A stretch of 64,000 bases of DNA from Planctomycetota bacterium (GTDB lineage Bacteria > Planctomycetota > Planctomycetia > Pirellulales > Pirellulaceae). The stretch is from the NCBI GenBank assembly GCA_026692865.1, contig JAPLNI010000058.1, forward strand, positions 496,938 through 560,937, given 5' to 3'. Position 1 is the first letter of the stretch. Each line of letters starts with the position of its first letter. The notes beneath the pieces are model-generated. The model was given only the letters and a program-made list of their open reading frames with translations. It was not told the DNA's origin and made no database searches. The position numbers were made by a program, and so were the translations under genes. Positions 59,373-63,961 of this stretch are shown here, piece after piece.

Positions 59373-59393
59373 CTCGCCCAAATACATTTTCGG

Positions 59394-59460
59394 GTAGCTG
59401 AATTCGTAAGAATTCAGAAGTCAAGGCGATCAAAAGCTGGTGTCTTTAGAAACTTCTAGA
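59394..59460 (-). repeat. Partial REP-doublet element, copy 6
   Basis: In reverse orientation GTAGC-TGAATTC-GTAA-GAATTCA (59394-59416) is a perfect REP half identical to the right half of the other copies. The opposite half is decayed (TGTCTTTAGAAACTTCTA near 59440). The copy sits between waaA and the xylanase-like pseudogene. Confidence 0.65.
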
Positions 59461-60416: not shown

Positions 60417-60879
60417 AAGAACAATTTTCTAAAACTACATTTCAAAAATGAAATCGAAAGCAAGTATCAAAGCGCTCGGTATGTGCGGGTCGGTTCGTGC
60501 GTATGGATCGGTGAGTGTGGATCGGCTAATGTCGATAAGTGAGCAGCGAACATTCACAACTAGGAAGCCTTTTCATCTGCGAAACTTCACATCGTTACTC
60601 GAGCCTCCATTTTCTCTTTGACTATTCAGCACAAGTCAAATAACCAGCCAATCTTCAATTACCAATCATTTTGCAGTTTTTTAGTCAGCATCCAAATACT
60701 TCCTGTCTACCGGACCGAGGTAAGACGGAAGAGAAAATCAGAGTTAGATTCCAACGACAGTTACGATTTTGCAGGTATTCCCAACATTTCCGCCCCTCCC
60801 TCAGCCCAAGTCAACCTTCCCCAAATACGCCGCCGGTCATGTATTGCTCAGAACGACGAAATCCATACAATGCGAATAT
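60417..60879. other. Intergenic region before tRNA-Arg
   Basis: A 463-bp stretch with no supported gene. Short plus-strand frames that run through the tRNA are spurious. It contains several near-repeats of a GATCGG(T/C)-like motif around 60480-60530 but no clear array. It should hold the tRNA promoter. Confidence 0.4.
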
Positions 60880-60953
60880 GCACCCATGGCGCAATTGGAT
60901 AGCGCATCGGTCTTCGGAACCGAGGGTTGTAGGTTCGAATCCTACTGGGTGTA
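60880..60953 (+). tRNA. tRNA-Arg (anticodon TCG)
   Basis: A 74-nt cloverleaf. The acceptor stem GCACCCA pairs with TGGGTGT (one G-U), with discriminator A. The D arm is GCGC/GCGC. The anticodon stem TCGGT/ACCGA closes loop CTTCGGA, with anticodon TCG at 60914-60916. The T arm GTAGG-TTCGAAT-CCTAC is perfect. CCA is not encoded. It reads CGA/CGN arginine codons. A terminator follows at once. Confidence 0.95.
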
Positions 60954-60964
60954 TTTTTTCTTCT

Positions 60965-61133: not shown

Positions 61134-61904
61134 ATGCGTTTTGCAAAGCCTTGTGTTTCATTCGTGTATGTCGGAATAATTGCCTGCTTTTTGTTTCAAC
61201 TTTTGATTTCATCGTCGACACAGGCAGGAATCATGAGTGTTCCATTTACCCCACCTGGGTTATTACCCGGTGACAAATTTCACATTGCTTTTGTAACGGC
61301 AGGGACACGAAATGCACAAAGCCCTAACATCGCAGACTACAACCTGTTCGTATCGAATCAGGCAACTGCTTCAGGAGCAATTACAGAAACGTGGGGAGTG
61401 AAGTGGTATGCGATTGCCTCAACTCAAGCGATTGATGCACGCGATAACGCGTTTGTATCAGCGCCTGTTTTTTTACTCCGCAGCCCAGGTCCGTTTTCTA
61501 TTTCAAAGTTAGCGAATGGTTTCGCGGATATGTGGGATGGCCCTGATATAGCTGATGGTTTCACTATCGATCAATTTGGTAACGGTGTTGTAGGTCCAGG
61601 ACAATCCCGTTTCGTTTACACAGGCTCAAATGATGATGGAACTCAATATTTTGATCGTTTTGGAGTTACAAATGCACTAGGCAGTGGAGCCTCAACTGGA
61701 ATACGTGTAGGGAATGTCATAAATCCTTGGATGAGTGCGAATAACAGCATAGCAACCTTTGAGCGTCCGTTTTATGCACTGAGCGAAGAACTCACTGTCG
61801 CAGCAGTTCCTGAACCTTCATCTCTCCTTCTCGCTCCACTTGGACTTGGGCTTTACGCTCTTGTCCGTCGACGGCGTATGGCAAAGGAAGTTAGCGTCAG
61901 CTAA
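61134..61904 (+). CDS. PEP-CTERM sorting domain exported protein
   Basis: A 256-residue exported protein. AAGGGG lies 6 nt before ATG 61134. The signal helix is CVSFVYVGIIACFLFQLLI. The body (LLPGDKFHIAFVTAGTRNA, DYNLFVSNQA, KWYAIASTQAIDARDNA) belongs to an uncharacterised planctomycete PEP-CTERM type. The end has VPEPSSLLLAPLGLGLYALVRRRR, the full exosortase signal. It is processed at the envelope; its role is unknown. It is unrelated to the 6528 protein apart from the sorting signal. Confidence 0.9.
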   Translation: MRFAKPCVSFVYVGIIACFLFQLLISSSTQAGIMSVPFTPPGLLPGDKFHIAFVTAGTRNAQSPNIADYNLFVSNQATASGAITETWGVKWYAIASTQAIDARDNAFVSAPVFLLRSPGPFSISKLANGFADMWDGPDIADGFTIDQFGNGVVGPGQSRFVYTGSNDDGTQYFDRFGVTNALGSGASTGIRVGNVINPWMSANNSIATFERPFYALSEELTVAAVPEPSSLLLAPLGLGLYALVRRRRMAKEVSVS

Positions 61905-62158: not shown

Positions 62159-63295
62159 TTAGCCTTGGTTAATCTTGAATAACCCACCGAATATCTGCTT
62201 ATTCAAGTGCTCTTCTGTTATCTCTTTGGTTTGCTCTTGGTGTGTTGTGCCGACATAAATGGAATCATGGACGGTTAAAGCAGGTATGCCGACCCTGCTC
62301 AGTTCTGCGAAAATGCCATCAACGAAAATCGATGCTTCAAGATTTTGTTTCTTAACCGCAAATTGGCGGTAATCAAATTGCTTTTGTGAGGCCACATAGT
62401 TTGCGGTTACTGGATAGTTGTCGGCGATGTATTGTTGAACCAAAAGAGCTTGGGGGCGTCTTGTTCCATGTTTTCGGATGGGCCCATAAGAGTAGCTGTA
62501 AAAAGCTTTCTTTGCTTTGTCTCTATCCAAATCAAATGCCCTAGCGATTCCCTGATAGAGTTCATCACTTAAACATGCCCCTAATAATTTTTCATCTTTA
62601 GCTAGACTTCCCATAAGCGTTGGCTGGGCGGCTTGAAGGTCAAAAGACCGTATCTCATCGCTACCAAAGGTAAAGAGCTTCCTTACCGCATTTCGCGACG
62701 TCACCCACGGACTAAAAAGCCTATCAACTTTCCTCCCCCTTTTGATGCTTCCAACGTTGTTTTCGATTGTCAGCAGGGCTTTTTGGTCTCGGTTGCGATA
62801 ACGGTCTTCTGTATTCTTTATTTTCCCCCAAGCATTCTCTTTTTTTCTCAATAGTCCGAGATTTTTTCTTGTTTGTTGGCTCGCTTCGTCGTTGGCCGTT
62901 TCAGCAATCGAAAAGCAATCTTGGATTGTCTTTGAACATAAAACATATTCAACCATCTCTTCTCTCCCCAGAGTTCGATACTGTTGAGCGGTCTGGTTTT
63001 TGATTCGAAGATTTCTCAGCGTTCCATCCTTACACATCGTCTTTCGAATCTCGATAAAGCCATTTTCTTCCAGCCAAGCCCTTATCTTTGCCCTAGTTTC
63101 CCTACTCTTTGTGATGAATTCAAAGTTTTTATCTAAGACCTGCTTCCATTCCTTACCGGTTCGCGTGGTCGTGTTGTTCTCCCAACTATCTATCAACCAC
63201 CAGAACAGATAAGTAGCTTCCATTTTGTCGATTCTCTCGCCCAAACTTTCAACCTCATCTATCAGGCGACTTGGGAGGTAAATTGAATTTTCCAT
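62159..63295 (-). CDS. Family A-like DNA polymerase of a probable mobile element
   Basis: A 378-residue protein starting at ATG 63295 (AGGTG 7 nt upstream; a TTG at 63319 is less likely). The N-terminal third looks like a helical DNA-binding region (RETRAKIRAWLEENGFIEI). The C-terminal half has the three palm/finger motifs of family A polymerases: motif A SFDLQAAQPTLM (D219), motif B DRDKAKKAFYSYSYG (R258 to G271) and motif C ALTVHDSIYV (H343, D344), with a conserved-looking QNLEAS (E320). A FSPWVTSRNAVRKLF segment precedes motif A. There are no exonuclease domains and it is much shorter than Pol I. Such compact proteins are known from integrated elements and plasmids; the actual activity (DNA or RNA polymerase, replication protein) is unknown. 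It is probably co-transcribed with the gene at 63365. Confidence 0.65.
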   Translation of the reverse strand: MENSIYLPSRLIDEVESLGERIDKMEATYLFWWLIDSWENNTTTRTGKEWKQVLDKNFEFITKSRETRAKIRAWLEENGFIEIRKTMCKDGTLRNLRIKNQTAQQYRTLGREEMVEYVLCSKTIQDCFSIAETANDEASQQTRKNLGLLRKKENAWGKIKNTEDRYRNRDQKALLTIENNVGSIKRGRKVDRLFSPWVTSRNAVRKLFTFGSDEIRSFDLQAAQPTLMGSLAKDEKLLGACLSDELYQGIARAFDLDRDKAKKAFYSYSYGPIRKHGTRRPQALLVQQYIADNYPVTANYVASQKQFDYRQFAVKKQNLEASIFVDGIFAELSRVGIPALTVHDSIYVGTTHQEQTKEITEEHLNKQIFGGLFKINQG

Positions 63296-63364
63296 CCTGC
63301 GGCACCTAGTGATAGACAAGTGAAAGATAAGGGGCGATTGGGTTCAAGGCTTCGTACACATGGT

Positions 63365-63961
63365 TTAAGGCATGTTCTTCAATGCCAACAGTAAATCTCT
63401 GTCAACAGCATTCAAAGTCGAAGGTATGTAAACAAACTGCCTATCCCTTTTAAAGTTCTCGTTGAGGACTGCCGTAACAGTTTGAAGCGGAAACCCAGAC
63501 TCAAAACCTGCCGAGGTCAATAGACGTTTCATTCCTTCGATTTCAAAATCAGCTTTATGGTCCGGTAAAACTTCAAATTGGTCTTGCCTCAAAAGTCTTG
63601 AAGCGTGCCCGATATCGTAGATGTTCTTTCGATACATCTTGAAGGGAGATATAAGGGCAGCGATTCCACAACCCGTTAGGTCCGACAAATCAACAAGGCT
63701 TTTAAGTGCTTGTAGCGTTATTTTTTTATTTCGTTGCCTTGGAAGTGTCCAAAGTAATCGAATAAGCATTACGGATTCGAGCATGCTCGATTGTCCTCGA
63801 TACTTTCCGCCAATCTCATCTACTGATATGAGCACGGAGTCGGCATAGGAATAAACACATCCACCGGTTCGATGTTTCCAATCTGGACTATCGTAAATGG
63901 CCCGAATCATCCTTGTGATAGGGTAAGCTTGTACGTCTGCCCTACAATTGATCTCTATCAT
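63365..63961 (-). CDS. Hypothetical protein upstream of the polymerase-like gene
   Basis: A 198-residue protein with a good ribosome site (GGGAGGG 7 nt before ATG 63961). It starts MIEINCRADVQAYPITRMIRAIYD and has a helical middle (SVMLIRLLWTLPRQRNKKITLQALKSLVDLS is split here only by reading: SVMLIRLLWTL, then KKITLQALKSLVDLS) and a basic C-terminal half. No membrane helix or known motif is seen. It ends 69 nt before the polymerase-like gene and is probably in the same operon, suggesting a replication accessory role. This is inference. Confidence 0.6.
   Translation of the reverse strand: MIEINCRADVQAYPITRMIRAIYDSPDWKHRTGGCVYSYADSVLISVDEIGGKYRGQSSMLESVMLIRLLWTLPRQRNKKITLQALKSLVDLSDLTGCGIAALISPFKMYRKNIYDIGHASRLLRQDQFEVLPDHKADFEIEGMKRLLTSAGFESGFPLQTVTAVLNENFKRDRQFVYIPSTLNAVDRDLLLALKNMP

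Follow-up and report, generated by a model that had tools for sequence, protein, structure and literature searches.

A compact family A-type polymerase in a putative tRNA-Arg integrative element, and its relatives in integrative elements and huge phages

What does a family A-like polymerase of only 378 residues do in the genome of a Planctomycetota bacterium? The open reading frame (ORF) lies at 62159–63295, on the minus strand, of the 64,000-nucleotide stretch that we analysed (the window; C58:496938–560937) and starts with ATG, an alternative upstream TTG start at 63319 giving 386 aa. A sequence-only reading, which had named no strand, described motif A as SFDLQAAQP, motif B as RDKAKKAFYSYSYG and motif C as LTVHDSIYV, with D219 and D344, and all of these were found in the ORF, in the order and with the spacing of family A. 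The protein is laid out as a helical/beta module at residues ~1–130, of low model confidence, followed by helices and by palm and fingers at ~136–370, with R192, R205, D219, Q224, R258, K262, Q317, E320, H343 and D344 as its key residues. In agreement with the claim that there is no nuclease domain, none was recognised: a Pfam scan of the window protein gave no match at E ≤ 1, PF00476 included, and no PHROGs family was significant. Single-sequence matches were obtained to the PADLOC model RTasPolA (E 2.5e-5) and to NCBIfam NF011538 (E 2.3e-4, under the model cut-off). A single-sequence search of the PDB returned two mitoribosomal proteins (E 0.061 and 0.4), and a profile search returned a repeat protein for the N-terminal part (E 0.01) and Pol I at E 1.3. 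That the ORF is the Pol I of the host could be ruled out, since the sole PF00476 match of the 5.55-Mb host genome is a separate long Pol I gene on contig 26, with an open frame of 1019 aa. The host most likely belongs in or near Pirellulaceae, since a relative from its taxonomic family (G506) is identical in sequence to one on a named uncultured Pirellula contig.

Relatives were collected stepwise. The first seeds came from a whole-genome search with the window protein in the same phylum, which matched three of 392 genomes including its own (relatives L004 and L005); with L004 as the query four of 392 matched, one of which (G062) was a broken match with five stops and was not used. Profile A4, built after a Hymenobacter plasmid protein had been added to the seeds, gave matches in 41 of the 397 genomes in the class and in 15 of the 149 in the family, the own genome being counted in both. 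Of 37 pattern matches in a scan of GTDB contigs 16 were confirmed; these come from Planctomycetota, Bacteroidota and unplaced bacteria. In IMG/VR, two scans with alignments upheld 9 of 61 matches and 68 of 91, the sets overlapping. With the window protein alone there was no match among plasmids and only weak Pol I matches among phages (E 0.7–0.8), and single-protein tests in IMG/VR confirmed none of eight pattern matches for the window protein and none of six for the Hymenobacter protein. Because the earlier profiles held the window protein itself, a profile was rebuilt from 83 other members. Among the 830 six-frame stretches of at least 40 aa in the window this profile picked out the polymerase ORF alone, with E 5e-27 and 90 bits over hmm positions 62–480 of 534, so that family membership is firm; a profile of 10 Pol I sequences matched none of the window's six-frame stretches. 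The family is not confined to planctomycetes, being also found in Bacteroidota, on the Hymenobacter plasmid and in phages of up to 735 kb.

The family thus delimited is a new and diverse variation on family A-type polymerases, spread over integrative elements and huge phages. Within it the window protein forms the longest end branch (5.88 in a quick tree), with a top identity to any row of 20%. PF00476 matched none of the ten members scanned (the window protein and nine others), NCBIfam gave one match, below cut-off, among 34 members, and the PHROGs family phrog_4756, of unknown function, was matched in the palm region by relative L018 (E 1.7e-7) and by neither the window protein nor the six other relatives scanned. 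In searches of an open-licence library, judged by title or abstract start, we found no paper about this family. Two alignments were used for conservation: A7 has 57 rows (the window protein and 56 others, taken from 85 proteins by clustering at 80%), and A5 has 34 rows and omits L012, L037, L040, L044, L048 and L049. The motif-pattern filter left out loci L012, L037, L044, L055, L061, L066, L069, L070, L073 and L079.

Profile–profile comparison and structure prediction, both of which the sequence-only reading had put forward as checks, bore out its polymerase assignment. Against 10 Pol I-type sequences (nine phage and host Pol I sequences plus T7; 7 of 25 listed rows), hhalign gave E 2.3e-9 (prob 96.2) for A5, 2e-7 (93.7) for A7 and 8.6e-8 (94.4) for A8, over 193–198 columns that span motifs A, B and C and also cover the motif B R-x3-K, the stretch that follows it and the Gln in the helix ahead of motif C. 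Reversed Pol I gave 0.28 and 0.7 in the same comparison and integrases 0.19 and 0.71. The six T7-type RNA polymerases, all of them phage sequences (T7 plus 5 of 20 listed rows), matched at motif C only, over 29–30 columns, at E 0.0072 (prob 5.4) and 0.028 (1.8). AlphaFold2 modelled the window protein, aligned with 56 relatives, at a mean pLDDT of 82.2 and a pTM of 0.71; block values were 84–98 over residues 141–370, bar one block of 70, and 44–84, mostly below 75, over the first 130 residues. In this model a confident palm superposes on Klenow (VIA Z 13.0, rmsd 3.4 Å, 231 residues), D219 ends strand 213–219 and D344 lies in the turn of hairpin 339–342/345–349, with block pLDDT of 97–98. As far as these placements can tell, neither outcome that the sequence-only reading had named as refuting it, a missing palm or D219 and D344 lying far apart, is borne out. 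All 20 PDB matches of the window model at E ≤ 1e-3 in Foldseek were family A DNA polymerases, and RNA polymerases began at E 0.12 among the 50 matches listed. By VIA, the top match of the window model was the mitochondrial RNA polymerase of humans, with Z 15.8 and an rmsd of 4.2 over 338 aligned residues; Pol theta had Z 14.0 (rmsd 3.3, 231). For a phage member modelled with higher confidence (pLDDT 90.5, pTM 0.84), all 50 of the matches listed were family A DNA polymerases, the top one at Z 14.7 (3.0, 247). Mitochondrial RNA polymerase thus comes first for one of the two models only, Foldseek and the phage model favouring DNA polymerases, and we do not name it as the nearest fold; the RNA polymerase rows of the window model are nonetheless evidence against seeing the protein as an ordinary DNA polymerase. 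Taken from profiles and models, the window protein has a predicted family A-type polymerase fold and is homologous to the palm and fingers of Pol I. The N-terminal part of the phage model consists of helices 54–71, 80–87 and 91–100 and then strands 104–108 and 116–121, an order of elements that we infer to be typical of a winged helix. A further variation, seen by eye in one member, was an apparent extra N-terminal helix-turn-helix at residues ~15–75 of L035:1477–2976, a gene also present in L161.

With family A DNA polymerases (Pol I/Klenow and T7 DNA polymerase; PF00476) the compact family shares the palm/fingers fold, a significant profile–profile match and a Pol I-like motif order (GR-H, R, the motif A Asp, R-x3-K, an FP segment, Q and HD). 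Unlike Pol I, the window protein has 378 aa, no recognised exonuclease and an extra N-terminal module, and the family has a shorter segment between GRxHT and motif A, Gln in place of Glu710 and mostly Ser in place of Glu883. Here we take the E. coli Pol I numbers Glu710 and Glu883 to correspond to window positions 224 and 345; Glu710 of Pol I is the steric gate, at the ribose-selecting position. D219, D344, R258 and K262 of the window protein align with the catalytic Asp pair and the motif B R-x3-K of Pol I, whereas the steric-gate Glu and the motif C Glu are missing, their positions being held by Q224 and S345. R192, R205, D219, Q224, K262, E320, H343 and D344 were present in every row of both A7 (57/57) and A5 (34/34), and P225 in every row of A7. 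Among the 57 rows of A7, 37 have R and 18 have K at position 258, Q317 was present in 56, position 266 (Phe762 of Pol I) was Y in 39 and F in 8, position 270 (Tyr766) was F in 49 and Y in 7, and position 345 was S in 50 and E in 1. The invariance of D-x4-Q and HD is partly due to selection, since rows were chosen by motif pattern (D-x4-Q in A7); selection does not explain why position 224 is Gln and never Glu in A5, because the A5 pattern allowed either. Two hallmarks of the family are present in the window protein, namely D-x4-Q-P at motif A and the pair Q317 and E320, a Glu three residues past the Gln in the helix before motif C. The NSQP form is a majority and not an invariant one (N in 55/57 and S in 53/57 rows of A7, N in 26/34 and S in 23/34 of A5), the window protein having AAQP. 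We read this pattern as that of a conserved two-metal active site with a probably altered ribose-selecting pocket.

We then considered where the gene lies. Because the window ends within the element described here, we took in the contig beyond it (C58:555000–574900, or L002; window coordinate = L002 + 58062). The polymerase gene sits in a putative integrated element of ~6.0 kb made up of the 3' end of a tRNA-Arg gene, the polymerase, small ORFs, a tyrosine integrase and an imperfect att copy past the window. The tRNA-Arg (TCG) gene, which is the presumed insertion target, was found by ARAGORN at 60879–60954 on the plus strand, and repeat comparison placed a putative attL, CTACTGGGTGTATTTTTT, at its 3' end (60942–60959, plus strand). 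The second att copy agrees in 16 of 18 bases and lies outside the window at L002:8861–8878 (C58:563860–563877), ~157 bp past the stop of the integrase (L002:7475–8704; PF13102 E 9.7e-12, PF00589 E 6.4e-8), at a spacing of 5981 bp between the copies. Taken alone the repeat is modest evidence, since its score was equalled in 1 of 60 shuffles and two stricter scans (exact matches of at least 14 nt, and near-exact ones) did not return it; the location of the att copy beside the integrase adds to it. The element ends are tentative and proposed for the window locus only, because scans for tRNA 3'-end repeats at the other loci, exact over at least 14 nt or near-exact, gave none. When 31 genomes from the same taxonomic family were searched at the DNA level, most of the matches fell in the tRNA part, and no syntenic empty site could be demonstrated. 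The G+C content was ~0.41–0.46 over L002:3001–9000, 0.46–0.51 to the left and 0.50–0.62 to the right.

Besides the polymerase, the element holds ORFs of 198 aa (63365–63961, minus strand, upstream of the polymerase), 123 aa and 91 aa on the polymerase strand, the latter two overlapping, together with a 167-aa ORF and the integrase. The small ORFs had no clear Pfam family and no convincing relative in the loci scanned, where the 198-aa ORF had none at all; Pfam scans recognised no primase or helicase in the element ORFs, and we saw no convincing iteron-like origin near the polymerase. Also between the att copies, at 61134–61904 on the plus strand, is a gene for a PEP-CTERM protein of 256 aa (PF07589, 20.9 bits against a cut-off of 20.7). 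It may be cargo or a resident gene; as cargo it would be unusual in an element of this size, and its presence may instead mean that the left end lies elsewhere.

To see whether this setting recurs, as a comparison of the genome neighbourhoods of homologues should tell, we examined 20 planctomycete loci of 10.7–19 kb (18 genomes, 342 kb in all), picked from the profile hits for contig room. By an iterated HMM, a tyrosine integrase was found in 14 of the 20 and none in the other six; in 11 loci no more than 3.5 kb separates it from the polymerase gene, and in seven no more than 1 kb. About 0.95 integrases would be expected in 342 kb, given that PF00589 has 522 matches in a set of 26 genomes that includes the 18, or ~2.8 per Mb with rounded genome sizes; the locus HMM and PF00589 are different detection methods, which would hardly make a tenfold difference. 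A tRNA gene was present in ten loci and stood at the integrase in eight, overlapping the integrase frame at its 3' end in L156, L160, L161, L169 and L170 and touching the frame or lying within 120 bp of it in L155, L166 and L168. Computation thus links the compact PolA-like family to integrases at tRNA genes. The D-x4-QP motif A, which had been taken as a sign of small-element polymerases, is a hallmark of a real family with such a link.

The same loci held other neighbours. L168:10208–12922 encodes a fused GHKL ATPase–Spo11/topoisomerase VI Toprim protein 12 bp from the polymerase frame, and L169:10376–12610 holds a split GHKL and Spo11/Toprim form, both forms lying 12–19 bp from the polymerase frame; we take these proteins to be topoisomerase VIII-like. 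A neighbour in L156 matched ParB_N under the cut-off and had relatives in L166 and, weakly, in L157, and HTH_17 was matched by neighbours in L161 (over the cut-off) and L159 (under it). Genomes G307, G698 and G832 each gave several equal-scoring integrase matches (up to five), suggesting recent multiplication of other integrase elements.

We lean, with modest confidence, towards the explanation that the window protein is a minimal, exonuclease-less polymerase of family A fold, carried by the ~6-kb putative element, that carries out templated DNA synthesis on the element after excision. What the computation provides is the predicted fold, the order of the catalytic motifs, the conserved Asp pair and fingers Lys, a coherent family and the linkage to integrases and tRNA genes. 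The tyrosine integrase would excise the element at the tRNA-Arg gene; on the excised element the enzyme would then perform templated two-metal DNA synthesis, either replicating the circle or extending and filling primed strands, and the N-terminal module, winged-helix-like in the better phage model, may bring the enzyme to the element DNA. The topoisomerase VI-like, HTH_17 and weakly ParB_N-like neighbours at other loci also speak for this explanation. Against it count the Pol I that the host has of its own, the ten members without a PF00476 match, the six loci with no integrase, the failure to see an iteron-like origin, the short and imperfect att repeat, and the long branch and AA pair of the window protein. 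A role as replicase is plausible. The sequence-only reading had gone as far as the replicative enzyme of a mobile element, and of this the fold, the catalytic Asp residues and the putative element stand, while the replicative role is weakened by the replicases in phages and the annotated plasmid initiator described below, and by the failure to recognise a primase or helicase among the element ORFs.

An unlikely alternative is that the protein primes for another polymerase, making RNA or mixed primers or starting without a primer in the manner of a single-subunit RNA polymerase-like primase. This would fit the Gln at the Glu710 position, which holds in all 57 rows of A7 (preselected for D-x4-Q) and in all 34 of A5 (where Glu was allowed), as well as the Ser that stands in for Glu883 in 50 of the 57 A7 rows, the human mitochondrial RNA polymerase at the top of the VIA list for the window model (Z 15.8), and the presence in member phage records of a replicase family that would still need primers. 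It is opposed by the comparisons themselves, in which T7-type RNA polymerases matched at motif C only (E 0.0072/0.028, against 2e-9 to 2e-7 for Pol I), RNA polymerases appeared from E 0.12 among the Foldseek matches listed, and all 50 VIA matches listed for the phage model were DNA polymerases.

Relatives of the protein were present in six uncultured phage records of 595–735 kb, two of which look like duplicates; four of the record lengths (634, 636, 642 and 735 kb) agree with complete huge phages described in PMC7162821. Of 13 phage records tested, ten matched PolB (PF00136; partial matches over the cut-off, some in frames with stops) and the other three matched DnaE (PF07733), so that a replicase-type polymerase was matched in 13/13. 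In the three DnaE records the next gene downstream of the compact polymerase encodes a second short PolA of 406–429 aa that matches PF00476, the pairs lying at L074:7989–10459, L077:7902–10343 and L183:4911–7357. The start of the second gene overlaps the stop of the compact one in L074 and L183, suggesting translational coupling and perhaps a heterodimer, and DnaE is encoded elsewhere in all three records; in L074, the one pair scanned, Pfam recognised no exonuclease in the second PolA. These records lend themselves to an accessory Pol I-like activity, such as primer replacement or lesion bypass, that would help the element or phage in place of a replicase: a PolB or DnaE stands beside the member in 13/13, in 3/13 a second short PolA gene follows immediately after the compact one or overlaps it, and a proofreading domain is not recognised. 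We nevertheless give such a repair or gap-filling role a low probability, since the gene lies near integrases in 14 of the 20 planctomycete loci and the host already has Pol I. The Hymenobacter plasmid that carries a member has both an annotated replication initiation protein and ParA, which weakens the case for the member as its replication initiator. Beside our preferred explanation of templated synthesis on the excised element, the contexts in phages and on the plasmid leave room for an enzyme that primes or fills gaps in place of replicating.

A bolder proposal, which we consider rather improbable, is a new class of replication initiator, in which a winged helix and a minimal PolA core with a Gln gate would start and extend synthesis at the element origin, acting as replicase of planctomycete and Bacteroidota islands and as priming polymerase beside PolB or DnaE in the largest phages. 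It is very unlikely that the window protein is a non-catalytic remnant: the long branch and the loss of the NS pair speak for it, but the ORF is intact and retains both catalytic Asp, Lys262, Arg258 and Gln317. The same branch and the AA in place of NS could indicate that the protein is decaying or specialised. A defence component carried as element cargo, comparable to the PolA that accompanies certain defence reverse transcriptases, has hardly any chance of being right: the RTasPolA match (E 2.5e-5) and the type I restriction-modification genes near the polymerase gene in L159 and L161 would favour it, but the PADLOC model is generic and matches ordinary PolA, only one of 34 members matches it at E ≤ 0.01, and Pfam scans of the seven listed ORFs of the window's element recognised no reverse transcriptase. 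That model (PDLC03816) matches the host's ordinary Pol I at E 1.2e-33 and, used alone, can mislabel PolA as defence.

How does the compact polymerase compare with known systems? According to PMC9023294, the C-terminal PolA part of DNAP01 of Yersinia phage YerA41 (residues 946–1306, 361 in all) is active when expressed alone, and the full-length enzyme worked without added primers; as the piece alone is reported active, a PolA core of ~360 residues can work. DNAP01 itself is a longer protein whose residues 227–577, in the N-terminal part, are described there as resembling T7 DNA polymerase, and we liken the two by this description. Pipolins are associated with tyrosine recombinases and tRNA sites. 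As in the putative window element, they are integrative elements that encode their own polymerase, of family B (PMC7385651, PMC9710591), whereas that of the window element is family A-like. The window element resembles them in having a site-specific recombinase (PF00589 E 6.4e-8) and an imperfect 18-bp att repeat, of modest support. In BFVD, the fold closest to that of the window model was A0A8D9FR19, a 403-aa protein of an uncultured marine phage (E 7.3e-13, 14% identity), whose name, 'Putative DNA polymerase I', is the deposited one only; we know of no study of it.

A sizeable polymerase family has thus been missed by the family libraries tried (PF00476, NCBIfam and PHROGs). Its members are unusually small family A cores in which the catalytic residues are retained and the ribose-selecting position bears a natural change, which makes nucleotide selection directly testable. 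The compact polymerase may serve as a marker of tRNA-inserted elements, as PolB does for pipolins, and one may ask why it is retained beside a separate replicase in some of the largest known phages.

Two further features were noticed in the DNA on either side of the putative element. Directly downstream and beyond the window is a second element-like block (L002:9346–15047, C58:564345–570046) with genes for a large serine recombinase, a DUF2924 protein and a 780-aa Prim-Pol/DUF5906/D5-like primase-helicase. Within the window at ~59376–59450, downstream of a glycosyltransferase-like ORF, a stretch of ~32–60 bp is a dispersed repeat that recurs at seven other sites of the genome with 82–100% identity.
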